Positions 8,631-27,981 of a stretch of 28,315 nt of DNA are shown piece by piece. The position numbers were made by a program, and so were the translations under genes. The first letter of the stretch is position 1; every line of letters starts with the position of its first letter. Under the pieces are notes generated by a model. The model was not told the DNA's origin, did not search any database, and was given only the letters and a program-made list of their open reading frames with translations. Source of the DNA: a virus; IMG/VR virus record IMGVR_UViG_3300046012_000340, positions 1-28,315 of that record; one strand, given 5' to 3'.

Positions 8631-8640
8631 CGTCTATCGG
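8631..8640 (-). promoter_or_regulatory. Start-associated motif, copy 1
   Basis: The minus strand reads CCGATAGACG, five bases before the GTG of the holin-like gene. No purine-rich ribosome-binding site is present in this gap. See the finding on the motif family. Confidence 0.7.
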
Positions 8641-8676
8641 CGTCGGGTCTGCGGAAGGGCACAGTCGTCGCCCGCG

Positions 8677-9666
8677 CTACTTCGTCAACCTTGGCAGGTT
8701 GATGAAGAGGCGCAGGCTCGAGCCGGGGACGGGGTAGTGCTTCACCCAAATACCTTCGGCGCCGCCACCCTCGGGATGCGTGTTCCCCTCGACGGTCGTG
8801 TAGCTGCGGACGTGGCCGGCCGAGTCGGCGTCGACGTCGGCCACGAAGCCGATGTGACCGTCGTCGCCGAGCCAGACCATCAGCGATCCGATCTGCGGCT
8901 TCGCAACGACCCAGCCGAGCGCCGCCGCAGTTCGATAGCTCGGGATCACGGCGAACGGTGACGCGGGGAAGAAGGGGATCGGCTGGTAGCCGTTCACGCT
9001 GAACGCGACCTCTTGGAAGATCTCGCAGTAGGCGAGGCCGCTCGTGCCGAAGACGCTCTGGATCCGGTTGATCGACCAGCCGCCAGGCCCTGGAACGCTG
9101 CCGACGTTCCAGCCGCCCTCCCTGGTCCCGACCTGCTGCAGCTCCCACGCTCTGATCGCGAGCGCCAGCTTCGTCGGCTGCGTGTCGTCGACGAGCTCGA
9201 TCCGCGACTGCGCGAGCGCGACCCAACACGCCGGCCTGGTCGCGATCAGCTTGCCGTTGTTGTCGCGCGTGCCACGCAGCAGCGCCCAGAACCACGGGCC
9301 GACCTCGGGCACGAGCTTCGAGGCCTTCGCGCCGCACTGGCCCTTCGCAGGGAAGCCGAGCCGGTAGCGGAGCGCGACCGTGGCGGCCTTGGTTCGCGCG
9401 CCGTAGCTGCCGGGCGTGTAGCGGTGGAGGGTCGGCTTCACCTTGCCGCCGCACGCAACGGCGAACCGGTTCGGGCAGTGACCGGAGATCATCCACTGCC
9501 AGCCGTCGACTCGCTCGCCGCACGAGCCGGCGTGCAGATTCCATGCGTCGCTGCACTTAGCCGGATGGGTGGCTGCGGTCGAGTGGGAGGCGGCCACGGC
9601 TGCGGGCGCGCCGGCGGAGATCGCGATCGCCGCCACGGCGGCGAGCAGGACGGCAAGTCGCTTCAC
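8677..9666 (-). CDS. Secreted CHAP-domain endolysin
   Basis: The 329-residue protein starts at GTG 9666 with a signal peptide (KRLAVLLAAVAAIAISAGAP, cleavage near residue 26). Residues about 80-130 resemble a peptidoglycan-binding-like module (YTPGSYGARTKAATVALRYR). The C-terminal region is a CHAP-type cysteine amidase/endopeptidase: Cys214 in GLAYCEIF, His271 in DDGHIGFV, and Glu293/Asn295 in TVEGN. CHAP enzymes cut peptide cross-links or the amide bond of peptidoglycan. A signal peptide suggests export by the host Sec system rather than full holin dependence. It lies between two small membrane-protein genes in a lysis cassette. The start is preceded by a start-associated motif instead of a Shine-Dalgarno sequence. 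Confidence 0.85.
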   Translation of the reverse strand: MKRLAVLLAAVAAIAISAGAPAAVAASHSTAATHPAKCSDAWNLHAGSCGERVDGWQWMISGHCPNRFAVACGGKVKPTLHRYTPGSYGARTKAATVALRYRLGFPAKGQCGAKASKLVPEVGPWFWALLRGTRDNNGKLIATRPACWVALAQSRIELVDDTQPTKLALAIRAWELQQVGTREGGWNVGSVPGPGGWSINRIQSVFGTSGLAYCEIFQEVAFSVNGYQPIPFFPASPFAVIPSYRTAAALGWVVAKPQIGSLMVWLGDDGHIGFVADVDADSAGHVRSYTTVEGNTHPEGGGAEGIWVKHYPVPGSSLRLFINLPRLTK

Positions 9667-9670
9667 ACGC

Positions 9671-9680
9671 CGCCTATCGG
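9671..9680 (-). promoter_or_regulatory. Start-associated motif, copy 2
   Basis: The minus strand reads CCGATAGGCG, one base different from the consensus, four bases before the GTG of the endolysin. Confidence 0.65.
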
Positions 9681-9687
9681 CGAGTCC

Positions 9688-9921
9688 TCAGAGCAGCTGC
9701 GTGAGGAGCGCGAACGCCGTCTTCGCGTTCTGCGCCGGCGCTTGATGTGTGGTCGCCGTGGTGGCGGCGACGAGGATGGCGGCGCCGACGATCGCGATGC
9801 ACCAGTTGCGCAGGCCGGTGATCCGTTCGCCCATCGTCTCGAGCTTCGCCTCGACGAGCTTCTCGAGGTTCTGGCCGAACTCGCGTGCGTCGTCCTTCGT
9901 GAAGGGGCGATCGTCGGCCAT
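9688..9921 (-). CDS. Holin-like coiled-coil/TM protein
   Basis: The 77-residue product starts at ATG 9921. The first half is charged and helical (DDAREFGQNLEKLVEAKLET), followed by one transmembrane segment (about 38-57, NWCIAIVGAAILVAATTATT) and a short tail. Proteins with this plan, a cytosolic coiled coil plus a membrane span beside an endolysin, are often class III holins or anti-holins in actinophages; the assignment is from position and topology. Another ATG five bases upstream opens a different, unlikely frame. Confidence 0.6.
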   Translation of the reverse strand: MADDRPFTKDDAREFGQNLEKLVEAKLETMGERITGLRNWCIAIVGAAILVAATTATTHQAPAQNAKTAFALLTQLL

Positions 9922-9926
9922 CGCAT

Positions 9927-9936
9927 CGTTTATCGG
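9927..9936 (-). promoter_or_regulatory. Start-associated motif, copy 3
   Basis: The minus strand reads CCGATAAACG, one base from consensus, five bases before the ATG of the coiled-coil/TM gene. Confidence 0.65.
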
Positions 9937-9968
9937 CCGGCGGCGGTGCTTGGGATGCCGCTAGTAGG

Positions 9969-10376
9969 TCAGGTGCCTGCGGTGGTGTCGAGCGCGCCGA
10001 TCGCCAACCGGATCAGCGCCGAGCATTCCTTCGTGAGCATCTTGACCTGGGCGAGCGTCTGCGCGTTCGTCGGTGCGTTGAGTGCGAGGAACGTGTCGTT
10101 CGCGGCCAGCGCAGCCTGCGCGCGCGTGACCAGTGCGGCACGGTTCGCGGCCGCGGTCTGGAACGTCGCGTCGATCGTCGCCAAGGTCGGGTCGGTGTTC
10201 GGTGTGACGGTCGCGATCGCGTCGGGGATGACGATCGCGACCTGAACCGGCTGGGATCGATCGATGCCGACGCCTGCTCCGACTTCTTGGCGGATCAGCT
10301 CGGCGGCCGCAGCGAGATCGGATGCAACGAATGGCTTGGTGACGATGCCGCCGTCGTGGACGATCAGGAAAACCAT
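9969..10376 (-). CDS. Hypothetical virion-region protein
   Basis: The 135-residue product starts at ATG 10376. It begins with a beta-like stretch (MVFLIVHDGGIVTKPFVASD) and continues as long helices ending in TNAQTLAQVKMLTKECSALI. The terminal block resembles conserved phage proteins seen between fibre and lysis genes; no function is known to me. It starts at the same base at which the fibre-like gene stops, so the two are coupled. Confidence 0.6.
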   Translation of the reverse strand: MVFLIVHDGGIVTKPFVASDLAAAAELIRQEVGAGVGIDRSQPVQVAIVIPDAIATVTPNTDPTLATIDATFQTAAANRAALVTRAQAALAANDTFLALNAPTNAQTLAQVKMLTKECSALIRLAIGALDTTAGT

Positions 10377-11272
10377 CAGGTGACCCCGTAGAGGAAGAAT
10401 GAGCTGCCGGCGAGGAGCGGCACGCCGCCGAAGATGATCTCGAGTCGAGTGATCGCGGCCGTGTTCTGCCAGGCGACCGAATACTCGCTCTCGAAGTGGA
10501 TGCCGGTGCCCGAGATTGCGGTCTGATAGGCGTTTCGCACCCGCGCTCGTTTATAAAAGGGCGATTGGTAGCGCTGGATCAGGAAGTCGACGGATCCGGC
10601 CATGTTCGCGTTCGCTGCTGACCCTGGAACGTTGCCGAGGTAGACGTATGCCTCGGTGGCCTTCGAAGCTGTGATCGAGGCGTCGTTGGCTTGGTAGGCC
10701 TGGCGGTAGTAGTTGGTGCCGGCGTCGTGGTTGATCTTCATCGTGCAGCCGACGGAGACGCTGCCGAAGTCGGCGGTGGTGCGACCCTCGAAGTAGCCGA
10801 TCAGATGGTTGTAGGTGGTCGGGATGTTGCCGCCCAGGAGCGCGTTCGTATCGAACAACAAGGCTGTGCTGACGGCGAGCACCTGGCTGCAGATGAGTGT
10901 CATCGCCCCGCTCGGCCCGGCAGCGATCGCTACGGAGCTGGCGCCGGTTGCGCGCCCCTTCGCGTCGAACGTCACCTGCGGTACATGAGTTGCGTCGCCG
11001 TATGTTCCCGCCGCCACCCCCGACGTGCCGAGCGCCGGGTTCGGGTAGGTGCCGCTGAGGTCGCCGCCCGCGGCTCCGGATGGTGCGGCGCCGGGAGGAG
11101 TGGCCCAGGTCGGCGGGTTCGTGCCGACGAGCACCTTCGTTGGGTCGGCGGGGCCTACCATCTCGTACTCGACATCGGCGACGCCGGCGCCGAGCGACGG
11201 GTCATCAGTCACGGTCGGAACGAGCAGCCCCGACGGCGACGATTTGAAGTTGATGCCTGCTTCGCGGAACAT
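10376..11272 (-). CDS. Tail fibre-like minor tail protein
   Basis: The 298-residue product starts at ATG 11272, overlapping the stop of the LamG-like gene. It has a short N-terminal attachment region. Next comes the fibre signature GGDLSGTYPNPALGTSGVAA with YGDATHVPQVTFDAKGRATG (about 68-110), a repeat type common in phage tail fibres. A C-terminal beta-rich domain (about 130-298) could bind the host surface. No chaperone gene is adjacent. The upstream open frame is arginine/histidine-rich shadow sequence, supporting this start. Host receptor recognition is inferred. Confidence 0.75.
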   Translation of the reverse strand: MFREAGINFKSSPSGLLVPTVTDDPSLGAGVADVEYEMVGPADPTKVLVGTNPPTWATPPGAAPSGAAGGDLSGTYPNPALGTSGVAAGTYGDATHVPQVTFDAKGRATGASSVAIAAGPSGAMTLICSQVLAVSTALLFDTNALLGGNIPTTYNHLIGYFEGRTTADFGSVSVGCTMKINHDAGTNYYRQAYQANDASITASKATEAYVYLGNVPGSAANANMAGSVDFLIQRYQSPFYKRARVRNAYQTAISGTGIHFESEYSVAWQNTAAITRLEIIFGGVPLLAGSSFFLYGVT

Positions 11273-12162
11273 CAGACGCCGTCCTTGTAGAAGGCGATCG
11301 TCTGCGGCTCGTACGTCACGGAACCGTCGCCGCCCGCGACAGGCACCGTTCCCGAACCGGGGATCCCGTGCGTGACGCCGGCGTTGTAGACCTCGAGCAC
11401 TTCGGCGCCGGATAGGCCGCGCGTCGCGGCCAGCATCCCGTACGACATCGTGCCGTCCGTGTCTCCCAGGACGCCGGATGGCGGCGAGCCGAACCAGATG
11501 CCTGCCGCGGGCGTGTAGAGGCCCTCCGTGTACGACGCGGCCTGCAGCAGCCCGTCCACGTACATCAGCCACTCGCCGGCGATCCGGGTGATGAGCCCGA
11601 GGTGGAAGTCCGTCGAGGTCATCGCGTTGTCGCTGAGAACGGTGTTCGGCCCGGAGGTCGTGTTGCCGACGAACAGCAGCAGCTTGCCGCTCGTGGCTTG
11701 CCTGATCAGCGCCCAGCCGGCGTGGCTCGAGTGGCCGCCGAAGAACCCGGAGCCCATGAAGTCTTTCGAGCCGGCGCCTTTGAACCAGACGCCGGCGGTG
11801 AAGTCGCCGGTGATCGTGCCGGTCGTCGTTTCCTCCATGCACGCGGAGGCAGGCGAGACCTCAAACAGCGCCGACTGTGTTCCGGGAGGGCCTGCGGCCT
11901 GCGCCCACGTCGGATCCGCGAAGCCGCTTACCGTCGATAGATCGTGACCGTTGCCCGTCGAGTCATGCGCGACGCTGCCGGCCGCGTCGTCGAACGGCCA
12001 TACGGCGTCGAAGCCGAGCGTGTCGAGCGTGTCGTTGAGACCGGGACCGCCGAGTAACCCGGGCGGGAGCTTGATATGCCTGCGCTCGAGCGCTTCGATG
12101 CGGCGGCGGTGGTCGCCGAGTGCGGGGCCGCGGCCCGGGCGTTGCGGGAAGCTGAAGCTCAC
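11272..12162 (-). CDS. LamG/concanavalin-like minor tail protein
   Basis: The 296-residue product starts at GTG 12162 (GTGA overlap). After an N-terminal ~50 residues, the body has the LamG jelly-roll pattern: WPFDDAAGSVAHDSTGNGHD, FTAGVWFKG, WALIRQATSGKLLLFVGN, GEWLMYVDG, and LSGAEVLEVYNAG at the end. LamG modules bind carbohydrates or proteins. Placed between the Gp37-like tail protein and the fibre-like gene, it probably forms part of the tail tip that contacts the cell surface. Confidence 0.75.
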   Translation of the reverse strand: MSFSFPQRPGRGPALGDHRRRIEALERRHIKLPPGLLGGPGLNDTLDTLGFDAVWPFDDAAGSVAHDSTGNGHDLSTVSGFADPTWAQAAGPPGTQSALFEVSPASACMEETTTGTITGDFTAGVWFKGAGSKDFMGSGFFGGHSSHAGWALIRQATSGKLLLFVGNTTSGPNTVLSDNAMTSTDFHLGLITRIAGEWLMYVDGLLQAASYTEGLYTPAAGIWFGSPPSGVLGDTDGTMSYGMLAATRGLSGAEVLEVYNAGVTHGIPGSGTVPVAGGDGSVTYEPQTIAFYKDGV

Positions 12163-13340
12163 GTGGTGCCGTCCGCGGAGACGAGCATGCCGGTGACGGT
12201 CTCGACGTCGTCGTCGGTGGGGGCGATCGTCATCCCCCAGACGCGTTGCAGGCCGGCGAGCGGTTTGCGGAGACGCTTCGACGCGTAGACCGGAAGCTCG
12301 TCGCCTTCCTGGTAGTCGTCGATCGGGTCGACGCCGGCTTCGGCGGCCGGCTGCAGGGTGACGGTCTCCTGGCCGTTTTTGCGGAGCAGTAGCTGCAGTG
12401 CCGCGAGTGCGGTGACGGCGTCGGTGAGGGTCTGGCCGGGCCAGGTCTGGGTCGCCCAGGAGACGCCGTAGGCGGTGATGCTGTCGGAATCAGAAGCGAT
12501 CTCGGCGATGTCGCCGTCGCTCGTGAACATCGCGACGCTGTTCGCGCGCTTGGTGCCGTCCTTGAGGCGGCCGATGCCGGCGAGGTTGCGCGGGAACTTG
12601 TCCCAGGAGAAGATCGCGTCGTTGCGCTGGCTGCCGGCCTGCGTGTAGATCGAGAGCTCGGCGAGGTAGCCGGGCCGGTTGATCGGGTCGTAGATCGGGG
12701 TGAGGATGATGTCGAGCGACCCGGTCTGCTCGAGCTCGTCCCAGGCGTCGCCGACCATCGCGCCTTGCTGGAAGTCGATGTTCAGCGGGGCGGTGTCTTC
12801 GATCGTGCCGCCCCAGAAGGCGGTGCCGCCGTAGTCGGGTCCGGCGTCGATGTAGCAGCCGCCGTCGGCGTCGATCGTGCGCGCGAGGAGCTGCGCGGCG
12901 ATCGTCGATCCGACGGTGCCGGTGTAGGAGATGCCGGCGGCGGCGGGGAAGTTCCCGTCGGCGTTGTAGACCGGCCGGGTGTAGAGGCTCTGGCGGGGGT
13001 CGTAGGCGACGAGGTCGGCGTAAGGGGTGTCGCCGTCGACGCGGTCCTGGACGGTGAGGAGCTCGCCGGCGAACACCGGCACGTAGGGCGGGTCGCCGTT
13101 CGAGCGGCGCAGCACGAGCAGCAGCCGGACGCCTTCCTCGACGAACGGGAGGCCGTCGTCGTGGGGGATGTTGACTTCCTTGTTGTCGCCGGGGACGGTG
13201 CAGCTGTACTGCCACGCCTGCCGCAAAGCTCGTGTGAGCTGCCGGTTGGTGGCGAGGCCGTCCAAGATCGTGAGGACGGCGAAGCTCGCCCGGTCGAGGA
13301 CGACGGTGCGGTAGCGGCGGCGGAGCGGCAGCGTCAGCAT
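12159..13340 (-). CDS. ReqiPepy6 Gp37-like minor tail protein
   Basis: The 393-residue product starts MLTLPLRRRYRTVVLDRASF and resembles the siphovirus Gp37-like family first noted in Rhodococcus phage ReqiPepy6; the match is by recall of the pattern. Recognisable blocks include CTVPGDNKEVNIPHDDGLPF, ADLVAYDPRQSLYTRPVY and, near the end, EGDELPVYASKRLRKPLAGL. Such proteins occupy the gene order of baseplate hub (gp27-like) proteins after the distal tail protein. The ATG is separated from the upstream stop by 10 nt; the downstream stop overlaps the next GTG. Confidence 0.75.
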   Translation of the reverse strand: MLTLPLRRRYRTVVLDRASFAVLTILDGLATNRQLTRALRQAWQYSCTVPGDNKEVNIPHDDGLPFVEEGVRLLLVLRRSNGDPPYVPVFAGELLTVQDRVDGDTPYADLVAYDPRQSLYTRPVYNADGNFPAAAGISYTGTVGSTIAAQLLARTIDADGGCYIDAGPDYGGTAFWGGTIEDTAPLNIDFQQGAMVGDAWDELEQTGSLDIILTPIYDPINRPGYLAELSIYTQAGSQRNDAIFSWDKFPRNLAGIGRLKDGTKRANSVAMFTSDGDIAEIASDSDSITAYGVSWATQTWPGQTLTDAVTALAALQLLLRKNGQETVTLQPAAEAGVDPIDDYQEGDELPVYASKRLRKPLAGLQRVWGMTIAPTDDDVETVTGMLVSADGTT

Positions 13341-13350
13341 CGCCGGCGGC

Positions 13351-14199
13351 CTAGACCGCGAACGCCCCGTTGACCTTGAACGTCGTGGTGTCGGCGCCGG
13401 TCAGTGTGATCGTGTTGTCGCCGACGGCGAGCGGGAAGAACTCGGAGGCGGTGACGTCGATGCCCTTCTTCAGGTTCGCGCCGCTGCCGTCGAGGTAGGC
13501 CTTGCCGCCGCCGAAGGTGGTGATCTCGGCGCTGTGTCCGGACGCGACCGAGACGGCGCCGGGCAGGGAGTCGTCGTAGACGATCTGCAGCGGGTTGCCG
13601 TCGTCGTCCACGACGGTCTCGTTCGTGAGCGTGAACGCGGTGAACGGACCTGCGACTTCGATCACCGGGTAGTAGGGGACGTTGCCGTCGTTCGTGACCG
13701 TGTCGGTGCCGCTGACGTCGACGTCGACTTGGGTCAGGTCGATCGCGTAGGGGAAGCGGGTGTCGAGCGCGACGGTGACGCGCTTCAGCGAGTCCTGCAC
13801 GACGGCCGGGTCGGGCCACTCGAGCAGCCGCAGCCCGTCGATGATCCGTGCGTCGCTGCCGCCGGTCGGGGTCCACTGGTAGCGGCCGTCGGCGTTCAGG
13901 AGCGCGTTGAGGTGCAGCATCAGCTCCTCGTACATCTCGCGCCTGGTGGCGCCGATCGCGATCGCGCCGTTGTCCCAGAGCTGCCAGGAGAGCCGGAGCA
14001 CGTAGCCGCCCTTGAAGCGGCTGTGGATCAGGTCGCCGTCGCCCTGCGGGATGTTCTCGACGGTCGAGCGGACGGTCAGGCCGACGTCGCAGGAGCCGGC
14101 TTCATGCACGTACCCGTTCAGCGTGCCGCCGTCCTCGAGGTCGAGCGTCCCCTCCGGGGAGGTGAGCGAGCTCGCAAGGTTCCATTCGATCCCCGGCAT
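13351..14199 (-). CDS. Distal tail protein-like
   Basis: The 282-residue product starts at ATG 14199, four nt after the tape-measure stop. It begins MPGIEWNLASSLTSPEGTLD and has beta-rich segments, including GYVLRLSWQLWDN and LHLNALLNADGRYQWTPTGG, then a C-terminal region of strands (about 155-282). Gene order (tape measure, this, Gp37-like protein) and composition fit the Dit family, which forms the ring at the tail tip. Assignment is by context plus general resemblance. Confidence 0.7.
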   Translation of the reverse strand: MPGIEWNLASSLTSPEGTLDLEDGGTLNGYVHEAGSCDVGLTVRSTVENIPQGDGDLIHSRFKGGYVLRLSWQLWDNGAIAIGATRREMYEELMLHLNALLNADGRYQWTPTGGSDARIIDGLRLLEWPDPAVVQDSLKRVTVALDTRFPYAIDLTQVDVDVSGTDTVTNDGNVPYYPVIEVAGPFTAFTLTNETVVDDDGNPLQIVYDDSLPGAVSVASGHSAEITTFGGGKAYLDGSGANLKKGIDVTASEFFPLAVGDNTITLTGADTTTFKVNGAFAV

Positions 14200-14203
14200 C
14201 GGC

Positions 14204-16933
14204 CTAGTACCCGTGCGTCGCTGCGTCGCTTACGAGGTCGATGTCGCGGAGCCGGTTCTTTTTCATCGCGCCGGTGTGCTTCTCGGTGCTCGCGGACGAG
14301 CTCGCGATCTTCGAGAGGTGCAGCGCGATCTCGGCAAGCTTCGCGCGCGCGTCCTGGCCGGACAGCAGCCCGTTCGGGCCGGCGATGTTCGACCCGTAGA
14401 GGCCGTACTCGTTCGCGGCCTCGGTGAAGAAGTCGCCGGCGCTCGTCGACGTCGTCTTCTTCTTTGTGAGCGTGTCGATCTTCTTCTGGATCGACGCCTT
14501 GGTGGTGTAGGCCTTGGCGACCGCGTCCTTGCTCGCGTTGATCTTGTGCAGCTGCGCGATCTGCTCGTCGAGCGCCTTCTTCTCCTGCTTGAGGATCGAG
14601 ACGAGTCTCTCGGTCGAGGCGCCGTTCGCGCGGGCGTTCATCTCCTCGATCACGAGGTCGGCGGGAACCTTCTCGAGCTTTGTGATGTGCGCGTCGCGCT
14701 GCTTGTCGATCTTCGCCTTCGCGGCCTTCGCCGCCCGCGCCCGGGCGGCGGCGTCCTGGGCCTTCTGCTGGGCGATCTGCTGCAGCTGCGAGCGGAGCGA
14801 CGCCTCGTCCTGGTAGACCGACTGCAGCGACTGGACGAGCTGCGGGTTGCCCTTCCCGGACGCGATTCGCTTCTCGGCGAACGCTGCGGCCTCCTGGTCG
14901 TAGTCGAGCTTCGCCTTGATCGCCGCCGGGCTGTTCGGGTTCTTCGCGAGCGCCAGGTTCAGCTGCGCCGCCCGGGACGGCTTGTAGTCGGGCATGGTCG
15001 TCGTCGACGGCGGCCCTTTCGTCGTCGTGGTCGAGGAGCCGCCGCCGCGGCCGGCTGCGTCGTGGAGCGGGTCGTTCGACATGCCGCTCGTGTTGGCCGG
15101 CTTCTTGTTGGAGCCGAAGATCGCGTCGCCGAGCTGGTGGATCGGGTTCCGTCCGGCGACGCCGCCGGTTGCGATGTTCTCGATGCCGCTGAAGAGCGCC
15201 GCGGCGCCGCGGCCGAGGTGATCCTTGATGAACGACTCCTCGGAGCCTTCGACCTTGATCGCGATCGGAATCACGATCGGTGCGATCGAGAGCGCGCCGA
15301 GGCCGAGCAGGCTCCCGCGCAGCAGCGCGACTTTGCCGTTCGCGCCGGTCGCGGCGCCGCCGATCAGCGCGACCTCGCCGGCGGTCGTGGTTGCGCTCAC
15401 GCCGAGCCCTGCGAGCTCGGCCTCGGTCGCGGCGATCGCCGGGGCCGCCTCGACGGGCATCAGCTTGAACGTCTTGCCGATCAGCGCGACCGACTTGATG
15501 ACACCGGCGGTCGCGAGCAGCAGCGGACCGCCGACGGCGAGGAGCCCAATGATCACCTCGATCTCGGTTTTCGCGGTGTGGCCGAGATGGTCGAAGCCGT
15601 CGGCGATCGCGGAAAGGCCGCCTGCGACCACGACGACGATCGGAGCGATGGTGGCGCCGAGCTTGATCAGGTCGACCTGCACCGACGACCAGGCGGTCGC
15701 GAGCTTGTACGCGTCCGAGTTCTTGACGTCGTGCTGGTCGTTGAAGAACTTGTCGGTGTTCTTGCGGACGTCGCCGAGCTTCTGCTGGTAGGAGGAGAGC
15801 TGCGCGTCGAGCGACTGGATCAGGGTGAGGATCGCGGCGCTCGAGCGGCCGCCGCCGAGCGCCTGGATGATGTCGCGGCTGCCGCGGGTGTCGCCGGCGG
15901 CTTGCATCTTGTCGTGCAGCAGCTGCAGCACCTTCAGGAGCCCGTCGGGCTGGCGCAGCAGCGTCGCGAGCTCGTTGGCGTCGATGCCGAGATCCTTGAG
16001 TGCCTTCTTGGCCTTCCCGGTCGGCGCTTCCATCAGCGCGAACGTCATCCGGAGCCTGGTCGCGGACTCGTCGGCGCCCATGCCGCGGTCGGTGAGCACC
16101 GCGAGCGCGGCGCCGACCTGGTCGAGCGAAAGGCCGGCGTTCTTCGCGGCCGGCAGGACGCCGGTGCCGAGCGCGGCCACGAGGTCGTCCATGCGCATGT
16201 TGCCGGCGCCGATCGTCGCGTTGAGGGTGCCCATCGCCCGGTCGTAGTTCTCGGTGCCCTGGATGCCGGTGACGACGGAGGCGCCGAGCGCGGTCGTGAC
16301 CTCCTCGAGGTCGGCGATGCCCATGAACGCGGCGATCGACGACGTCTTCAGCACACCCATAGCCTTGGCGCCGCGAAGGCCGAGCGACTCGAGGTGGTAG
16401 AGGCCCTTGGCGAGCTCCTCCGGGCTCTGCGGCACCGACCGTGCGAGCTGCAGCACCTGGCCGGTGAGGTTCTTCACCTCCGCCCCGGTCGCGCCGGCCT
16501 GCGTCTGGACCATCAGCATCTGCCGGTTGAACTCGACGCGCATCTTCACCGCCTCGAACGCGATCAGCGCGGTCGGCGCGGCGACGTAGCGGGTCAATGC
16601 GTGACCGACGGTCTGGGCGGCGCGCAGCTGCGCGGCGGTCGCGGCCGCGGCGGCGCGCTCCTGCGTGATCGCGGTCCGCTGCGCCTCGACGGCGAGCGCC
16701 CGGAGGTCGTTGCGGTAGGCGACGGTCGCCTTCTGCGTCGACAGCGACTCGGCGCCGGTGCGTGCGAGCGACCGGTTGAGCTTCTCCTGCGCGACCGCCA
16801 GGCGGAGCGCGTCGTCTGACATCGCGCCCGTCGTCTGCGAGTAGACGCGGCGGATCTCGCCCAGGTCCGCGCGCGTCTGGCCGACGGGTACCCGGAACTC
16901 GAGATCGGTGACGATCGGCTCGAACGAGCTCAC
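14204..16933 (-). CDS. Tail tape measure protein
   Basis: The 909-residue product is the longest gene in the window and starts at GTG 16933, one base after the chaperone extension stop. The N-terminal half has the TP901-type core (AVLTDRGMGADESATRLRMT, then FALMEAPTGKAKKALKDLGI). The middle has several hydrophobic stretches (about 425-485 and 545-565) and the C-terminal third is Ala/Lys/Gln-rich helix. Tape measure proteins set tail length and take part in DNA entry; using about 0.15 nm per residue, a tail of roughly 135 nm is implied. No peptidase or lysozyme domain is evident. Confidence 0.92.
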   Translation of the reverse strand: MSSFEPIVTDLEFRVPVGQTRADLGEIRRVYSQTTGAMSDDALRLAVAQEKLNRSLARTGAESLSTQKATVAYRNDLRALAVEAQRTAITQERAAAAATAAQLRAAQTVGHALTRYVAAPTALIAFEAVKMRVEFNRQMLMVQTQAGATGAEVKNLTGQVLQLARSVPQSPEELAKGLYHLESLGLRGAKAMGVLKTSSIAAFMGIADLEEVTTALGASVVTGIQGTENYDRAMGTLNATIGAGNMRMDDLVAALGTGVLPAAKNAGLSLDQVGAALAVLTDRGMGADESATRLRMTFALMEAPTGKAKKALKDLGIDANELATLLRQPDGLLKVLQLLHDKMQAAGDTRGSRDIIQALGGGRSSAAILTLIQSLDAQLSSYQQKLGDVRKNTDKFFNDQHDVKNSDAYKLATAWSSVQVDLIKLGATIAPIVVVVAGGLSAIADGFDHLGHTAKTEIEVIIGLLAVGGPLLLATAGVIKSVALIGKTFKLMPVEAAPAIAATEAELAGLGVSATTTAGEVALIGGAATGANGKVALLRGSLLGLGALSIAPIVIPIAIKVEGSEESFIKDHLGRGAAALFSGIENIATGGVAGRNPIHQLGDAIFGSNKKPANTSGMSNDPLHDAAGRGGGSSTTTTKGPPSTTTMPDYKPSRAAQLNLALAKNPNSPAAIKAKLDYDQEAAAFAEKRIASGKGNPQLVQSLQSVYQDEASLRSQLQQIAQQKAQDAAARARAAKAAKAKIDKQRDAHITKLEKVPADLVIEEMNARANGASTERLVSILKQEKKALDEQIAQLHKINASKDAVAKAYTTKASIQKKIDTLTKKKTTSTSAGDFFTEAANEYGLYGSNIAGPNGLLSGQDARAKLAEIALHLSKIASSSASTEKHTGAMKKNRLRDIDLVSDAATHGY

Positions 16934-16934
16934 C

Positions 16935-17872: not shown

Positions 17873-17874
17873 CG

Positions 17875-19181: not shown

Positions 19182-19189
19182 TCTGCGGC

Positions 19190-19199
19190 CGTCTATCGG
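19190..19199 (-). promoter_or_regulatory. Start-associated motif, copy 4
   Basis: The minus strand reads CCGATAGACG, exactly the consensus, eight bases before the ATG of the HeH/LEM-like gene. It lies in a 32-nt gap without a ribosome-binding site. Confidence 0.7.
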
Positions 19200-19213
19200 C
19201 GGCCGCCGGCGGG

Positions 19214-21011: not shown

Positions 21012-21023
21012 GGCCAGGCTCCT

Positions 21024-21056
21024 CTATTCGCTCTCGACCGCGGCCGAGCTGCGCAT
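21024..21056 (-). CDS. Possible 10-residue coupling ORF
   Basis: An ATG overlapping the upstream stop (TGATG) opens a frame of MRSSAAVESE and a TAG whose last bases adjoin the GAGGAG ribosome-binding site of the connector gene. It could carry ribosomes to that site, but a 10-codon frame is easily accidental. Confidence 0.2.
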   Translation of the reverse strand: MRSSAAVESE

Positions 21057-21547: not shown

Positions 21548-21556
21548 CGGCTGCAG

Positions 21557-21566
21557 CGTCTATCGG
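21557..21566 (-). promoter_or_regulatory. Start-associated motif, copy 5
   Basis: The minus strand reads CCGATAGACG, exactly the consensus, nine bases before the ATG at 21547. It follows two terminator-like hairpins, so transcription may restart here. Confidence 0.7.
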
Positions 21567-21582
21567 TCGCCGCGGGTAGGTG

Positions 21583-21639
21583 TTCGTGGGGGCGACCGAA
21601 GCCGCCCCCACGAATCGAGGCCCTCCCGTTGGGCCTCGA
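21583..21639 (-). terminator. Tandem terminator-like hairpins
   Basis: Two perfect inverted repeats are adjacent. TTCGTGGGGGCG (21583-21594) pairs with CGCCCCCACGAA (21603-21614): 12 bp, 8-nt loop. TCGAGGCCC (21615-21623) pairs with GGGCCTCGA (21631-21639): 9 bp, 7-nt loop. They lie directly after the TAG of the HeH/LEM-like gene. No U-tract follows, which is common in GC-rich bacteria. Confidence 0.65.
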
Positions 21640-21640
21640 G

Positions 21641-22084
21641 CTAGGCGTCTCCCTGGATTCCGGCCTTGGCGACGATCTCGTCGATCACGGCCTGCTTGTT
21701 CGCGAGCTTCTCCGGATTCTCGATCCCGATCGCGGCCGCCTTCTCGTTCAGCGCGTCGCGCTTTAGCTCGCGCAGCTCTGCCGCGTCGACCGGGTCAGGG
21801 TCGCCGTCGACGTCATCGTCGTGGTGGTCTGCAGCTTCGCGGGCGGCCTGCTCGGCGGCTTCGCGCTCTGCCTGCTCGCGGGCGGCCTGTTCGGCTGCAT
21901 CGGCCCCTGCCTGCTCGCGGGCGGCCTGTTCACGCGCCGCGGCGTCGGGGTCGGACGAATCGGGAAGCTTGGCGATGCCGGCCTTGAGGAAGCGCTTCGC
22001 CTCGAGCTCGTCGAAGTCGTGGACGGAGCCGGCGCGCTTGACGCCGTCGGGGCCGGAGAGAGTCTTGAGGAGCTGCAGTTCCAT
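21641..22084 (-). CDS. HeH/LEM-like protein following the major capsid gene
   Basis: The 147-residue product starts at ATG 22084 with AAGGAG upstream. Residues about 1-41 form a short module (GVKRAGSVHDFDELEAKRFL KAG). A long charged helix built from EQAAR-type repeats spans about 50-85, then an acidic linker, and the C-terminus (about 108-143) is a helix-extension-helix, REELKRD-type start followed by ALNEKAAAIGIENPEKLANK. The same two end modules occur in reversed order at 18876-19181. Placement after the capsid gene, between hairpins, suggests a head-associated role; the family function is unknown. Confidence 0.65.
   Translation of the reverse strand: MELQLLKTLSGPDGVKRAGSVHDFDELEAKRFLKAGIAKLPDSSDPDAAAREQAAREQAGADAAEQAAREQAEREAAEQAAREAADHHDDDVDGDPDPVDAAELRELKRDALNEKAAAIGIENPEKLANKQAVIDEIVAKAGIQGDA
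21830..21946. repeat. 39-bp tandem coding repeat
   Basis: Three 39-bp (13-codon) units lie in the helical part of the HeH/LEM-like gene, starting near 21830, 21869 and 21908. The second and third share an identical 24-bp block (21869-21892 and 21908-21931); the first matches less well. They encode the EQAAR-type helical repeats and could vary in number. Confidence 0.65.
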
Positions 22085-22112
22085 CGTTGGGTCTCCTTAC
22101 GGGAAGAGGAAC

Positions 22113-22144
22113 GCGCGGCGGGCCTTCGGGGAGGCCCGCCGCGC
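22113..22144 (-). terminator. Hairpin after the major capsid gene
   Basis: GCGCGGCGGGCC (22113-22124) and GGCCCGCCGCGC (22133-22144) pair perfectly over 12 bp with an 8-nt loop. It sits ten nt after the capsid TAA and before the next ribosome-binding site, followed in the RNA by a moderately pyrimidine-rich stretch. It could end most capsid transcripts, protect the 3' end, or both. Confidence 0.6.
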
Positions 22145-22153
22145 GGGGTCGTC

Positions 22154-23401
22154 TTACGCGTGCGTCTTGAGGCTCTTGACGGCCGCGGTGTCGACGAGGT
22201 CACCGTCGACGCGCTCCGCGAAGCGGAACCCGACCTGGCCGTTGGCGGCGTACAGCTCGACGAGCCGCTGCGAGACCACGGGGCCGCACTCGCGGATGTA
22301 GTAGCCGGAGTGGTCGCCGAAGGTCGCGACGACCTTGGCCGCGGCGATCGTGTCGTAGAACGGATCGATGTAGACGGGGTAGCCGCGGATCATGTCCGGG
22401 TCGCCCGCCTTCAAGCCGGGCTGCCAGACGTAGTTGTTGAAGTCGTCGACGAGCTTTGCGATCGCGAGCAGCGTCGAGTCGTGCATGACCCACTGCGCGC
22501 CGGGCCGGTACGGCGGGGCGACGGAGTGGACGAAGTCGAGCAGCTCGTCGGAGGTGAGCGCCGTCGCGGACGCCGACGTGATTCCGACCGTCGCGGCGAC
22601 GGTGATGCCGTTCGGCTTCGAGGAGCCGTCGCCGGTTGCGAACGCGGCGCCTTCCTTCAGCGCGATCGCGCGGCCTGCGCGACGGCTGATGAACGGCGCC
22701 ATGTCGAAGAGCGAGTCGTTCAGGAGCTCCTCGCTGATCTTCACGATGACGCCGTACTTGTAGGCGTTCAGGATCGCCTCGTCGAAGGTGTCCTCGGACT
22801 CGGTGTAGCCGGCTGCCTCGGCCGTCAGCGTCGCGACCTGCGCGTCGGTGACCTTCGGGATGTGCAGCGGCTCGCCGCCGGCGGTCTGGATGATCGTCGC
22901 GAGCTGGCGCAGGACGCCGTACTGCGTGCGCGCCTCGACGAGCTGGTTGCGCCAGTTCTCCGGGACCGTGTAGCCGCCCTGGCCGTCTGTCGCGACGTTG
23001 AACGCGGCCGCCTGCATCTGCACGCGGTCGAGCACGGAGCGGCTATCGGGCGACATGCCGTTCGCCGTTCGCCGCATGTACTCGGTGAACGCGGCGTTGT
23101 ACTCGGGCGTCTGGAAGAGCGCCCAGAAGCTCTCGTCGGCGTCGTCGTCGGCGGCGGTCGCCGGGTTGACGATCACGGCCTTGTGCGCGAGGCGGCCTTC
23201 GCGTGCGGCCTGGCTCTCCTCGAGCTCGACCTTCTCGTCGAGCGACTTGAAGTCGGCCTCGGCCTTGGTGTAGGACTGCTTGTCCTCGGCCGTCAGGTCG
23301 CGGTCTTCACCGCGGGCCGTGTCGAGGATCGCGCGCATCTGCGTGACGAGCTCGGCACGGCGGGAGCGCATGTTCTCCAGCTCGTGAATGGGAAGTCCCA
23401 C
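22154..23401 (-). CDS. Major capsid protein, HK97 fold
   Basis: The 415-residue product starts at GTG 23401 with AAGGAG upstream. Residues about 1-75 are a coiled-coil scaffolding (delta) domain (LENMRSRRAELVTQMRAILD), presumably removed by the protease. The remainder fits the HK97 fold: GGYTVPENWRNQLVEARTQY, VKISEELLNDSLFDM, GDGSSKPNGITVAATVG and the C-terminal GYPVYIDPFYDTIAAAKVVA FGD. It follows the protease gene by one nt, as in HK97-like phages. Confidence 0.93.
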   Translation of the reverse strand: MGLPIHELENMRSRRAELVTQMRAILDTARGEDRDLTAEDKQSYTKAEADFKSLDEKVELEESQAAREGRLAHKAVIVNPATAADDDADESFWALFQTPEYNAAFTEYMRRTANGMSPDSRSVLDRVQMQAAAFNVATDGQGGYTVPENWRNQLVEARTQYGVLRQLATIIQTAGGEPLHIPKVTDAQVATLTAEAAGYTESEDTFDEAILNAYKYGVIVKISEELLNDSLFDMAPFISRRAGRAIALKEGAAFATGDGSSKPNGITVAATVGITSASATALTSDELLDFVHSVAPPYRPGAQWVMHDSTLLAIAKLVDDFNNYVWQPGLKAGDPDMIRGYPVYIDPFYDTIAAAKVVATFGDHSGYYIRECGPVVSQRLVELYAANGQVGFRFAERVDGDLVDTAAVKSLKTHA

Positions 23402-23402
23402 G

Positions 23403-24599
23403 TCAGTTCTCCTTCGTCAGGGTTTCGTTGAGTGCCTGGGTGAGCGCCCAGGGGTTGTGCTCGTCACGTGTTGCATCACGGGGCTTGTCGGAGCCGGACG
23501 CCGGCTCGGGTTCGTCGGTGGCGGCGATCGGCTCGATCACCGCGACGACCGGTGCGGCCGGAAGCTCGCCAGAGGCCTTGAGCTTGTCTTCGATCGACGC
23601 GTCTGCGTCGTCGGCGCGCTTGCCGTAGGCCTTCGTATCCTCGGCGCGCTTGCCGTTCTTCTTGTTCGAGCTGCCGCGCGCGAGGCGCGCGAAGGCGTCG
23701 TCGAACGTCTCGACCCGATCGACCATCCCGGCGTCCAGCGCCGCGGCCGCGGTGAGCATCCGACCTTCGCCGTAGCCGTCGAGCACGGCCTTGTTGCTGA
23801 CGCCGCGTCCTTTCGCGACGTCGCCGACGAACATGCCGTAGTACTCGTCGACGGTCGCCTGCAGGTTCGCGAGCGCCGCCTCGGTCAGCGGCTCGTACGG
23901 GTTGCCCTCTGTCTTGAAGCGGCCGGCGTGGATCAGGGTGACCGTGACGCCCTCCTGCTCGAGCTGGCCGCTGAACTCTTGGTGGCAGCAGATGATGCCG
24001 ACGGAGCCGACCATGCCGGACGGGGTGACGGAGAGGCTGTCGGCCTGCGAGCCGAGCCAGTAGGCGGCGGAGGCGGCGTCGCAGTTCGCGACCGCCTCGA
24101 TCGGCTTCGATCCGCGCGCGTCACGGATCGCCTGTGCTGCTTCGGGGATCATGTCGGTCGACCCGCCGGGCGAGTTGATGTCGATCAGGACGGCGCCGAC
24201 GTTGTCGTTCGCGACGGCGGCCTGGAGCCCCGCGACGAAGTCCTGCACGGAGGTGCCGCCGCTGTACTGCGTCATCAGGCCTGCGCGGGGCATCAGGACG
24301 CCCTGGAGCGGCAGCACGGCGACGGTGCCGGCGATGTAGCCGGCGGAGCGGGCCGCGTTGCGTGAGACGGCGATGCGATGGGTCGCGCCGAGCTCGCGTG
24401 CGCGGGCGTCGTCGTCGAGCTCGTCGACGGCTCCGATCCGGTCGCGGATCTCCTGGTCGGTCAGCCGGCCGCCTGCGTCCCGGAACGCGAGCAGGTCGGT
24501 GATGACGGCGAGCTTGGACGGGAGGATCGCCCACGGCGTCTCACGGACGGCACGAAGGACGTTCGGGTAGAGGTGACCCTGCGAGTCGCTGCCCTGCAT
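23403..24599 (-). CDS. Prohead protease, S49 (SppA/ClpP-like) family
   Basis: The 398-residue product starts at ATG 24599. It has SPGG (143-146), the nucleophile Ser177 in DAASAAYW, GMVGSVGI (about 195-202), and Lys229 in GRFKTEGNPYEP. The Ser-Lys spacing of 52 equals that of the Ser147-Lys199 dyad I recall for Bacillus SppA. It should cleave the capsid delta domain during maturation. The C-terminal ~120 residues are polar and low-complexity (KKNGKRAEDTKAYGKRADDA) and may be scaffold-like. The start lacks a Shine-Dalgarno sequence and has the start-associated motif six bases upstream. Confidence 0.9.
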   Translation of the reverse strand: MQGSDSQGHLYPNVLRAVRETPWAILPSKLAVITDLLAFRDAGGRLTDQEIRDRIGAVDELDDDARARELGATHRIAVSRNAARSAGYIAGTVAVLPLQGVLMPRAGLMTQYSGGTSVQDFVAGLQAAVANDNVGAVLIDINSPGGSTDMIPEAAQAIRDARGSKPIEAVANCDAASAAYWLGSQADSLSVTPSGMVGSVGIICCHQEFSGQLEQEGVTVTLIHAGRFKTEGNPYEPLTEAALANLQATVDEYYGMFVGDVAKGRGVSNKAVLDGYGEGRMLTAAAALDAGMVDRVETFDDAFARLARGSSNKKNGKRAEDTKAYGKRADDADASIEDKLKASGELPAAPVVAVIEPIAATDEPEPASGSDKPRDATRDEHNPWALTQALNETLTKEN

Positions 24600-24605
24600 C
24601 GTCGG

Positions 24606-24615
24606 CGTCTATCGG
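24606..24615 (-). promoter_or_regulatory. Start-associated motif, copy 6
   Basis: The minus strand reads CCGATAGACG, exactly the consensus, six bases before the ATG of the prohead protease. It fills most of a 21-nt gap after the portal stop. Confidence 0.7.
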
Positions 24616-24620
24616 CGAGC

Positions 24621-25865
24621 TCAGTCGGCGGGCGCGACTTCGCCGTCCCTGCCGGCCGTCGACGTCGGTTTCATGCCGGGCAGGTACGGCTCGTCGCCCC
24701 ACGCGACGGGCGGCTTGTTCTCGCGCCGGCGCCACTCGTTGATCGTGATCGCGCCGCGGTCCATCATGATCGCCTCGCTCTCGTAACGAGTCTTGGTGTC
24801 GCCGCGCTGGATCTCATCGACGAGGAACTCGCACATCAGCCCGAGACGCGACGGGAAGATGACCGGGTCGTTCTTGATCGCGTTCTCGTGCCGGGTCAGC
24901 CAACGGCGGAGCGCCCAGCGGACGAAGTCGATGCCCTCCGTCTCGGCGTTCTTGTAGACCATCGACTTGCCGCCGGTGTCGGCGGCGAGCATGTGCGGCG
25001 GCAGCCGCAGCAGCTGCGCGCAGCGGACGTCGCCGAGCTTCTGCGCCTCGATGAACTGTGCGTCCTCGAGCGGCATGCTGATCGCCTTGAACTCGACGCC
25101 GTCCTCGAGGATCGCCGGCTTGCCGAAGTTGCGCGGCCCGCGCTGGGCCTTGTTCCACGACTTCTTCATCCGCTTGTAGACGTCGTCGTCGATCTTGTTC
25201 GGATGGGTGAGCACGCCGATCGGGACGGTGCTGTTCGCCCAGACGCGGCCGGCGTACTCCTGTAGCGCGAGCATCCCGCCGAGCTCCTGCCGGGCGATCT
25301 GCACCGGGCTGTAGCCGACGAGGCCGTCGTGGCCGAGGCCGGGGATGTGGAGGATCTCCGCGTTCGTGAGCATCGTCAGACCTGTGTGGCCGCCGTCGAC
25401 GACGAAGCGCTTGACGCCCTGGTCGTCGCGGTAGACCTGGACGCGCTCGGGCAGGAGCGGCCAGAGCTCGCCGATCGTGCCGAGGCTCGAGCGCTCCTTC
25501 CAGAAGAACGAGTTGCCCCAGGTGAGCAGCTGCGACTGGCTCAGCTCCCAGAGCTGGTCCGCGGTCATCTCCGGGTTCGGCTGGTCGTGCAGGATCCGCC
25601 ACTGGTCGGTGTCCCTGGCGCGCTCGCGGATGTCGTCGGGGCCGTCGCGGTAGACCATCAGCGGCAGCGACCCGACGGCGCCGGCGAGCAGCTGCACACC
25701 CGAGAAGTACGGGATCAGGGCGAGCACGCTGCGCGGGTTCGCTGTCTTGCCGGAGTACGACTCGCCGAAGAAGCCGGTCAGGCTCTCGGTCAGCCAGGTC
25801 GACGGGTTCCCGAGCGTCGCGGACGCGCGCCGCTCGAGGCCGCCGCGGAGGCGGTCAGCGAACAT
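24621..25865 (-). CDS. Portal protein, HK97 family
   Basis: The 414-residue product starts at ATG 25865 and matches HK97-type portals: SVLALIPYFSGVQLLAGAVG, LPLMVYRDG, LTWGNSFFWKERS, EILHIPGLGHDGLVGYSPVQ and, later, FRVPSRLG-type closing segments followed by TINEWRRRENKPPVAWGDEP. The portal dodecamer forms the DNA channel and docks the terminase. The ATG overlaps the small membrane protein gene by 11 nt. Size is typical. Confidence 0.92.
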   Translation of the reverse strand: MFADRLRGGLERRASATLGNPSTWLTESLTGFFGESYSGKTANPRSVLALIPYFSGVQLLAGAVGSLPLMVYRDGPDDIRERARDTDQWRILHDQPNPEMTADQLWELSQSQLLTWGNSFFWKERSSLGTIGELWPLLPERVQVYRDDQGVKRFVVDGGHTGLTMLTNAEILHIPGLGHDGLVGYSPVQIARQELGGMLALQEYAGRVWANSTVPIGVLTHPNKIDDDVYKRMKKSWNKAQRGPRNFGKPAILEDGVEFKAISMPLEDAQFIEAQKLGDVRCAQLLRLPPHMLAADTGGKSMVYKNAETEGIDFVRWALRRWLTRHENAIKNDPVIFPSRLGLMCEFLVDEIQRGDTKTRYESEAIMMDRGAITINEWRRRENKPPVAWGDEPYLPGMKPTSTAGRDGEVAPAD

Positions 25866-26112
25866 CGTTCGCCGACTCCGCCGGCGCCGGGCCGTCGGCG
25901 AGGCTGACGCCGAACGCGATCGATCCGGCGCCGCCGATCACGAACGCCGCCGCGACCGAGATGAGCGAGATCCCGTAGACCGCGGCGGCCGCGCCGACAA
26001 GCACGAAGCCGTCCGAAACGACAGGGCGCGCGAACCGCGACGAGAGCTGACGCAGCCTGACGAGACGCGGCGACGTGCGGGCGGAGCGGAGTCTGCGGAG
26101 AATGCGGCGCAA
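25855..26112 (-). CDS. Small membrane protein between terminase and portal
   Basis: From TTG 26112 the 85-residue product begins with a very basic stretch (LRRILRRLRSARTSPRLVRL), followed by two hydrophobic segments (about 34-50 and 54-72, VLVGAAAAVYGISLISVAAA) and an acidic tail. No ATG or GTG is available, and the start-associated motif lies eight bases before the TTG, supporting it. Function unknown; small membrane genes at this location are seen in other phages. Confidence 0.55.
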   Translation of the reverse strand: MRRILRRLRSARTSPRLVRLRQLSSRFARPVVSDGFVLVGAAAAVYGISLISVAAAFVIGGAGSIAFGVSLADGPAPAESANDVR

Positions 26113-26120
26113 CCTGACCG

Positions 26121-26130
26121 CGTCTATCGG
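26121..26130 (-). promoter_or_regulatory. Start-associated motif, copy 7
   Basis: The minus strand reads CCGATAGACG, exactly the consensus, eight bases before the proposed TTG start at 26112, just after the terminase stop. Confidence 0.7.
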
Positions 26131-26135
26131 CCTCG

Positions 26136-27941
26136 TCAGAGTGTCCGGATGCCCCGCTTGCTGTAGACGGTGCCGGCGCCCTTCGCGGTCGCGCGTGCGC
26201 AGCGCTCGCGGGCCATCGAGCCGGAGTAGACGAAGTCGATCGGCTCCGAGCTCTTCAGCTTGAACACCTTCCACCCGGATTCGGTCAGGACCGCCGCTGC
26301 GGCCGCGACCTGCTGTGCGAGCACCCGGTCGGGTGGCACGGTCATCGTCTTCTCGATCGCCGACTCGTAGAAGTGCTGCAGCGCGTCGGCCATCAGCGCC
26401 GAGTTCTGCGGGAACTCGGCGACGGTGAAGCCGGCCTCGGCGAGGTTCTCGCCCTGCGTGTCGAAGTAGCGCGGGTCGTACACGACTTCGCGCACCCGGT
26501 AGCGGCTGCCGAGCTCGTTGACGATGAAGTCCTCGACGAGGCTGTTGCGGATCCGGCCGCCCGGCACGAGCACGTGGTGCGGGACGTCGTCGCGGGCCGA
26601 CCAGACGCGGCCGCGGAGCGCGATCCGTCCGTCCTCGAGCCGGGTCGCCCAGCTGCAGCAGGTCGTGTCGCGCTTCTTCGCCGCGTCGACGCCGACCCAG
26701 ATGTCGGAGCCCTTCGGGATCTCCGGGTCGGCGAGCCAGGGCCGGTCGATCTCCTTGAACGCTGCGAGCGAGCGGATCGCGATCCAGACGCCGGCGGCGA
26801 ACCAGGAGCCCTTCGCCTTCGTCCAGCCGTTCAGGTTGAACCGGATCCACTCGTTCAGCTTGTCCTCGCGATCGCGGACGCGCTTCATCGCCCGCAGCAG
26901 CTCGTAGTGGTTGAGCCACGTCGCCGGGTTGCACTTCTTGATCACCTCGAGCATCGCCGCGTCGTTCTCGAAGTCGAGCTCGTAGCCGTCGGGCAGCCCC
27001 CACCAGAGGAAGAGCCGGCCGGACTCTTCGTCCCAGGCTCGGATATGGAAGCCGTCGTCGTGGTGCTCTACGTGCGGCAGCTTCAGCGCCGTCTCGTAGG
27101 CCTCGCCCAGCAGCGTGTCCTTGCTGTAGCCGGCGGTCGAGATCCACGCCCAGAACGCCTCGTCGATCTTGAACACGGCCGTCTCGAGCGCGGTGACCGT
27201 CTTCTCCTGCGCCGTCGTCTCGATCGTCCAGAACTCGTCGACGAGCCCGATGTTCGGCTTGCGGCCGTGGCCGAGCGAACCGGACGCCGCCATGATCGCG
27301 TACTCGCCGCGGCCGTCCCTGCGGGTGACCCGCGTCGACGACTTCGTCAGCCAGCTCTGCAGCCGCTCGTCCTCGTCGATCCAATCACTCACGTAGCCGA
27401 TCCCGAGCTTCGCCTGCTCCTTGCCGCCCGAGGTCTGGAACACCTTCGGCCGGCCGACGCCGGCGAGCGTCTGATGCGTGCCGATCCCCGACCAAAACGG
27501 CGTCTTGCCGCAGCCGCGCGGGATGCCCTCGCCGATCTCCTTGAAGATCCGACGGCCGAACTTGTCGCGCCGCCAGCCCAGGTCGATCGTCAGCACCTGA
27601 TACGGGTCGAGCTTGAACCGGCTGCCGTTCTCCCACTTCAGGAACGCCGGGAAGAAAGCCTTCAGCTGCTCGGCGCTGCCGGCAGGCCCGAGCTTCTCGA
27701 GGTGCTCGACCAGCGGCTTCGCCGACCGCGCCCGCCGGCCCTGCAGCTGCTGCGTCGCCCTCTCGAACTCGCGCGCGACCTGGCGCCGCTCGAGCTCGGT
27801 CGCCGCGGCGACGTAGCGCGCCTGCAGCTTCGACAGCGACTTCCACCGCAGCGGCTCCTCGGACAGCCGCTCATGGTGCTGGCGCGCAAGGAAACTCCCG
27901 TCCTCGACGAGCTCGAGGAGGGACTTCCGGGGTCTCGCCAT
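26136..27941 (-). CDS. terL: Terminase large subunit
   Basis: The 601-residue product starts at ATG 27941. The ATPase part has a Walker A-like PRGCGKT (141-147), Walker B IGLVDEF (231-237) and a coupling-motif-like FWAWISTAGYS (about 263-273). The C-terminal nuclease begins with an acidic strand DIWVGVDAAKKRDTT (about 413-426) and includes VYDPRYF further on. The enzyme packages DNA into proheads and cuts the genome. Size is normal. No small subunit is visible; it could lie beyond the right edge. A weak copy of the start-associated motif lies six bases upstream. Confidence 0.95.
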   Translation of the reverse strand: MARPRKSLLELVEDGSFLARQHHERLSEEPLRWKSLSKLQARYVAAATELERRQVAREFERATQQLQGRRARSAKPLVEHLEKLGPAGSAEQLKAFFPAFLKWENGSRFKLDPYQVLTIDLGWRRDKFGRRIFKEIGEGIPRGCGKTPFWSGIGTHQTLAGVGRPKVFQTSGGKEQAKLGIGYVSDWIDEDERLQSWLTKSSTRVTRRDGRGEYAIMAASGSLGHGRKPNIGLVDEFWTIETTAQEKTVTALETAVFKIDEAFWAWISTAGYSKDTLLGEAYETALKLPHVEHHDDGFHIRAWDEESGRLFLWWGLPDGYELDFENDAAMLEVIKKCNPATWLNHYELLRAMKRVRDREDKLNEWIRFNLNGWTKAKGSWFAAGVWIAIRSLAAFKEIDRPWLADPEIPKGSDIWVGVDAAKKRDTTCCSWATRLEDGRIALRGRVWSARDDVPHHVLVPGGRIRNSLVEDFIVNELGSRYRVREVVYDPRYFDTQGENLAEAGFTVAEFPQNSALMADALQHFYESAIEKTMTVPPDRVLAQQVAAAAAVLTESGWKVFKLKSSEPIDFVYSGSMARERCARATAKGAGTVYSKRGIRTL

Positions 27942-27947
27942 CGTGAA

Positions 27948-27957
27948 GGTCTGTCGG
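27948..27957 (-). promoter_or_regulatory. Diverged start-associated motif, copy 8
   Basis: The minus strand reads CCGACAGACC, two bases from consensus, six bases before the terminase ATG. The spacing agrees with other copies, but the match is weaker. Confidence 0.4.
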
Positions 27958-27967
27958 CCCGGCCGTC

Positions 27968-27973
27968 TAACCT
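27968..27973 (+). promoter_or_regulatory. Candidate -10 box for the rightward small gene
   Basis: TAACCT fits TAnnnT and lies eight bases before the ATG at 27982, so the mRNA leader would be absent or only a few bases. No clear -35 box or Shine-Dalgarno sequence is visible. Confidence 0.35.
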
Positions 27974-27981
27974 AGGCGGCG

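Follow-up and report, generated by a model that had tools for sequence, protein, structure and literature searches.

The virus record IMGVR_UViG_3300046012_000340 (IMG/VR), analysed here over its whole length of 28,315 bases (the window), is that of an HK97-type tailed phage, with genes for terminase, portal, protease, capsid, tape measure and Dit (PHROGs) and an endolysin. A short motif, CCGATAGACG, lies a few nucleotides (nt) upstream from the start codons of several late genes of this phage. It is present five times in exact form on the minus strand, which is the coding strand, together with two copies carrying one change and a weaker copy carrying two. These copies, and the genes they precede, are as follows:

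27948..27957, minus strand: weak copy, CCGACAGACC, 6 nt before the ATG (27941) of the large terminase gene; doubtful because it differs from the consensus by two changes
26121..26130, minus strand: exact motif, 8 nt before the TTG of an 85-codon open reading frame (26112-25855), the gene call being uncertain
24606..24615, minus strand: exact motif, 6 nt before the ATG (24599) of the head maturation protease gene
21557..21566, minus strand: exact motif, 9 nt before the ATG (21547) of a late gene of 163 amino acids (aa)
19190..19199, minus strand: exact motif, 8 nt before the ATG (19181) of a late gene of 101 aa
9927..9936, minus strand: one-change copy, CCGATAAACG, 5 nt before the ATG (9921) of a 77-aa gene, with a complete GCCGATAA within it
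9671..9680, minus strand: one-change copy, CCGATAGGCG, which is the G form often seen in other phages, 4 nt before the GTG (9666) of a CHAP-type endolysin gene
8631..8640, minus strand: exact motif, 5 nt before the GTG (8625) of an 87-aa gene adjoining the endolysin gene

The original prediction had described seven minus-strand copies (five exact, two with one change) plus the weaker one at 27948, and a recount gave the same coordinates and gaps. The motif-bearing genes of the window are exclusively late ones, with structural and lysis functions. No exact CCGATAGACG is found on the plus strand of the window, nor does the motif read backwards occur there. A first-order Markov model predicts 0.030 exact copies on the plus strand and 0.036 on the minus strand (about 0.07 for both), and 9% of the minus-strand positions in the window would be start-associated by chance. 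When up to two mismatches are allowed, there is no excess (54 matches in the window versus 46.7 +/- 6.6 in shuffled sequences), because words of the CCGATCGNCG type are common within genes. It is the exact and near copies that carry the signal; loose matches do not. None of the eight motif-to-start gaps contains a Shine-Dalgarno (SD) word. Window genes without the motif do have one, namely AAGGAG (capsid gene, 23401; 22084), GAGGAG (21011 and 18879) or AAAGGGG (17703), and the SD-bearing genes listed in the prediction, including that for the capsid, had been correctly identified.

In the form GCCGATAGACG or GCCGATAGGCG, the motif lies shortly before many late genes in at least 11 mostly very distant viruses of high-GC bacteria. 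A first scan, with GCCGATAGACG-N4-9-ATG, returned mostly chance matches, but several G+C-rich contigs had further copies, and the consensus GCCGATAGRCG was read from these contigs. Contigs G016-G019 came from a second scan, in which the G form was used. A search with a terminase profile, in which the motif was not used, gave seven loci: L288 (contig G006) and L289 (G007) have the motif at gene starts, G001 and G002 had already been found through the motif, and G008, G009 and G010 have no start-linked motif. Over the whole records of eleven contigs, the strand split of the word CCGATARRCG is 51:0, and the reversed word is absent from these contigs. In the fetched stretches (including G002), with open reading frames of at least 45 codons, 47 of 52 copies of CCGATAGRCG lie 3-9 nt before a start, versus 0 of 13 copies of the control word CCGATCGRCG in the same stretches. 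One of the two outcomes that the original prediction had named as refuting, a motif just as common within genes or remote from starts, was not observed. The seed sites themselves are circular, because some contigs were seeded with the motif and an ATG; non-circular evidence is provided by the GTG starts, the additional copies and the contigs found through the terminase.

The motif-bearing phages share little protein sequence with the window (23-46% identity for TerL and 24-43% for the portal), and they have proteases of two families (phrog_53 and phrog_80). The expected conservation in related phages gave a mixed picture, the motif being kept in distant relatives and missing from some relatives. 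Among isolated phages there is no close relative and no nucleotide relative, and single-protein scans with the terminase and the portal found no close relatives. Distant portal or capsid relatives, many of them Firmicutes-like, have no motif array and only single stray copies. A search of genome contigs for the host gave 0 matches for the terminase profile or for a 25-mer from the tRNA-Cys gene of contig G004. This tRNA-Cys gene (L327:6057-6127) adjoins a tyrosine integrase gene and is probably an attachment site; a tRNA in G004 was the only match in an Rfam scan.

In the other contigs, the motif-bearing genes are found mostly in the terminase-to-tail region. Gaps of 15-250 nt have the motif only in 30 cases, an SD only in 15, both in 1 and neither in 23, and the motif is present in 1 of the 65 cases where a start overlaps the preceding gene or directly adjoins it; these gap and overlap counts are approximate because the start calls were mechanical. 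The motif and the SD are nearly mutually exclusive. The proposal of a shared start-associated control motif that excludes the SD holds for the window and extends to other phages. The sole clear case of motif and SD together, as read by eye, is at L325:1140-1150 (G005:20140-20150), where the motif is followed by the SD-like AAGAGGAG before a possible TTG.

The conserved block comprises eleven positions, with GCCGATAGRCG as the consensus over 48 start-linked sites. The start codons at these sites are 31 ATG, 16 GTG and 1 TTG, the last being that of the doubtful gene at 26121. No column exceeds 0.25 bits upstream of the motif as far as -60, and the -35 words TTGAC and TAAA are absent upstream, with TAAA found within 45 nt in 0 of 48 sites. 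The G+C content upstream of the motif is 0.68-0.70. Tandem copies 18 nt apart are present on the minus strand of one contig (G016:24415-24442, L463), with a start codon at the usual distance only after the second. An RNA hairpin, GCC-GATA-GGC, was considered and rejected; it fits the G form only and has no supporting covariation, because the A form breaks the pair while the partner is still C.

At most sites, 4-6 nt separate the motif from the start, a spacing that suits a promoter and a ribosome signal alike. Downstream from the motif, position 5 is a pyrimidine in 69% of the 48 sites and position 6 a purine in 79%, C never being found at position 6. The start codon lies at this pyrimidine-purine step, or one base past it, in 38 of the 48 sites, and where it is at least 7 nt away the pair is still kept (7 of 8 sites). 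The spacing also depends on the base preceding the start (p = 0.0057, stratified within genomes). RNA polymerase prefers to initiate at a purine preceded by a pyrimidine. If the motif were a ribosome signal, this constant placement of the pair relative to the motif would be unexplained.

A sigma-like protein is encoded in contig G005 (34,026-34,649), with a weak match to Pfam Sigma70_r2 (E 0.0088 in the record, 0.067 as a protein). Homologues are encoded in G006 (10,494-11,126; phmmer 6.5e-7), upstream of the terminase gene, and in G016 (27,586-28,197), upstream of the motif-bearing genes of that contig. The gene is present in all three of the motif-bearing contigs known to cover the region before the terminase. 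The window and G004 are uninformative here because both contigs end just upstream of TerL, and the window phage may well carry its own copy beyond the contig end. A profile scan of 15 records, among them Streptomyces phage Chymera and the contigs G008-G010, which lack the motif, found no further copy; a viral scan for more relatives returned G005 and G006 again and nothing else, and sequence searches of PDB gave chance or repeat-driven matches only. The best alignments of the G005 model (mean pLDDT 46) were with sigma-28 (Z 9.3), the SigE N-terminal domain (8.9), WhiG (8.8) and T4 gp55 (8.7), and nearly all the listed chains were sigma factors. Sigma-28 was again the top match (Z 7.2) for the G006 model (pLDDT about 80, residues 11-90). 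The predicted fold of this divergent protein matches sigma region 2, with sigma-28 first; such matches are support rather than proof, because helical bundles readily give middling Z values. Small helix-turn-helix proteins of LuxR/GerE type, or resembling sigma region 4, are also encoded upstream of the terminase (L290, L291 and L293, which are motif-less, and L329:9851-10150), and are possibly late regulators of motif-less phages.

On balance, the motif is probably a -10-only late promoter that gives rise to leaderless or nearly leaderless mRNA and is read by a phage sigma-28-like factor. Two of the functions offered in the original prediction fared differently: a translation signal that replaces the SD is not the reading with most support, and the option of a leaderless -10-like element is favoured by three features, namely the pyrimidine-purine pair that occupies positions 5-6, the resemblance to the sigma-28 -10 sequence and the linkage to a sigma-like protein. 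On this sequence evidence, transcription is favoured over translation as the process in which the motif acts. In this set of late promoters, nothing but GCCGATAGRCG would be conserved, as an element of the extended -10 type with no accompanying -35. With a sigma-28-like factor encoded by the phage, RNA polymerase would melt the DNA at the GATAG core, and the RNA would start at the purine 5-6 nt past the motif, at the ATG or GTG or one to a few nt before it. With an mRNA that is leaderless or nearly so, an SD site would be unnecessary, and the predominance of ATG and GTG is to be expected because RTG would have to be at the RNA 5' end. Each late gene that lacks both an SD and coupling to the gene upstream would have an internal late promoter of its own.

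The late promoter word of phage T4 is TATAAATA, and the usual host -10 element is TANNNT. T4 gp55 resembles sigma factors in domain 2 only, and its recognition is confined to the -10 site (PMC2988020). The system proposed here would be similar in having many late -10-only elements, with predicted promoter activity, and a putative small divergent sigma factor, the predicted fold of which matches gp55 in G005; it differs in that its word is G+C-rich, that of T4 being A+T-rich, and in the position of the start codon at the inferred RNA start. In mycobacterial reporters, RTG is enough for translation when it stands at the RNA 5' end, and TTG fails (PMC4633059). The ATG or GTG at or near the putative RNA 5' end, without an SD, recalls such actinobacterial leaderless mRNAs, although at many of the sites the leader would be one or a few nt long and the -10 element is not of the usual host type. 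Promoters of sigma-28 (FliA/WhiG) have the form TAAAGTTT-N11-GCCGATAA, and in one that has been mapped the RNA starts 6 bp past the -10 octamer (PMC2859248). The first seven bases of the motif, GCCGATA, are the start of GCCGATAA; the consensus matches seven of its eight bases and the 9927 copy in the window matches all eight. The differences are the lack of a -35 TAAA, an eighth base that is usually G and an inferred RNA start 8-9 bases past the octamer. With no -35, the motif is not an ordinary sigma-28 promoter.

Start-associated sequences (SAS) have been reported in Cluster K mycobacteriophages, as GGGATAGGAGCCC, typically 3-7 bp before starts (PMC3203893), and in Cluster EF Microbacterium phages, as GGGAAAGGACCCC (PMC7302621). 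The likeness to Cluster K suggested in the original prediction is borne out in part: both are repeated asymmetric words that keep a single orientation and precede many starts by a few nt, and the Cluster K form shares GATAG. The consensus found here, GCCGATAGRCG, matches neither the 13-bp GGGATAGGAGCCC nor GGGAAAGGACCCC. The Cluster K SAS contains an AGGAG SD core and is found on non-structural genes, whereas the consensus here has no AGGAG or GGAG (only a G006 variant reads GATAGGAG) and the motif is on late structural and lysis genes. About half of the SAS sites have an upstream extension (ESAS); none was detected here to -60, inverted repeats with variable spacing not having been searched for separately. 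The motif described here also spans phages that have very little similarity to one another. Its different consensus and its lack of the SD core and of the extension place it outside the Cluster K/EF SAS. The pattern belongs with start-associated sequences; mechanistically, it would be akin to late transcription in T4, combined with leaderless mRNAs.

The main rival explanation is an SAS-type translation-initiation signal, in which the motif acts in the mRNA as the binding site of the ribosome, of a factor from the host or of an RNA-binding protein of the phage, so as to recruit the 30S subunit instead of an SD. The position and the spacing, mostly 4-6 nt, match those of a ribosome-binding site, the SD is absent, and non-coupled genes have either the motif or an SD. 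The lack of a -35 element and the flat upstream G+C content also fit, and the Cluster K SAS, which hold GATAG too, have been proposed to work in translation (PMC3203893). However, neither the motif nor the gaps that it occupies in the window show complementarity to the CCUCC of the 16S 3' end (the host's own 16S was not compared), the upstream member of the G016 tandem has no start codon at the right distance, and a translation signal accounts neither for the fixed-distance pyrimidine-purine pair nor for the sigma-like gene. We regard this explanation as rather unlikely. Alternatively, the same -10-only leaderless promoter might be recognised by a sigma factor of the host, such as one of the sigma-28/WhiG class; the sigma-like protein of the phage would then be unrelated to the promoter. 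A host-dictated element would be expected to be common to phages with little protein similarity, GCCGATA corresponds to a sigma-28 -10, and G004 and the window have no sigma-like protein. This seems improbable, given that known sigma-28 promoters require a -35 TAAA, mutations in which abolish activity, and that the window and G004 do not cover the region expected to hold the phage gene.

A site for a repressor or some other regulator that binds DNA, comparable to the stoperators of Cluster A mycobacteriophages, which share one orientation, would be repeated, asymmetric and in a single orientation relative to transcription, as the motif is. The comparison with stoperators comes in part from the SAS paper (PMC3203893). 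The fixed distance from the start codon, the exchange with the SD and the restriction to late starts make such a site quite improbable, and immunity sites would be expected to diverge among such distant phages. A gene-boundary sequence for recombination, with no role in expression, could explain a word common to the gene joints of mosaic phages with the phrog_53 and phrog_80 proteases; it is very improbable, since eleven bases are short for homologous recombination, the constraint extends to downstream positions 5-6, and the motif is found at starts only, with a narrow spacing and in exchange with the SD.

Several observations also weigh against the -10-only promoter. The DNA upstream of the motif is as G+C-rich as the remainder, which is unusual for promoters, and about eight internal promoters in one late operon are many. 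The RNA would start further past the octamer than in the mapped sigma-28 promoter. The pyrimidine-purine pattern at positions 5 and 6 was spotted in the very data on which it was then tested, and the sites of one genome are not independent of each other. The sigma-family sequence matches are weak (Sigma70_r2 E 0.067), the G005 model is of low confidence (pLDDT 46) and the Foldseek E-values are weak (8e-3 for G005, 0.6 for G006). The sigma-like protein is not found in the window, in G004 or in the shorter motif-bearing contigs.

It is conceivable, and suggested here tentatively, that phages of an uncultured high-GC lineage use a sigma-28-like domain-2 factor and a -10-only late regulon, with RNAs starting at or beside the start codon, and that the SAS of Clusters K and EF are perhaps likewise promoters rather than ribosome-binding sites. 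SAS were reported in 2011 without a mechanism, and a second, SD-free family accompanied by a sigma-like gene makes the choice between promoter and ribosome signal testable. If the motif is a promoter, these phages would have a compact late-expression system consisting of one small sigma factor and an 11-bp element, with no -35 and almost no leader, and the motif could serve as a marker to track down phages that infect an uncultured group of hosts.

Other genes of the window lie apart from the motif-bearing set. A gene for a Ku protein, a bacterial non-homologous end-joining factor, is present at 4923-6062 on the plus strand (Pfam PF02735, E 1.1e-25), opposite to the surrounding phage genes. 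A ParB-domain protein (248-1792, minus strand; PF02195 and PF17762) is followed by the start of an ATPase gene (3-251, minus strand), HerA/FtsK-like by eye; together they are perhaps a partition or plasmid-like maintenance module. Two small, divergently encoded HTH_31 proteins (6744-6977, minus strand; 7027-7449, plus strand) are likely to mark a repressor or switch region between the early and late genes.

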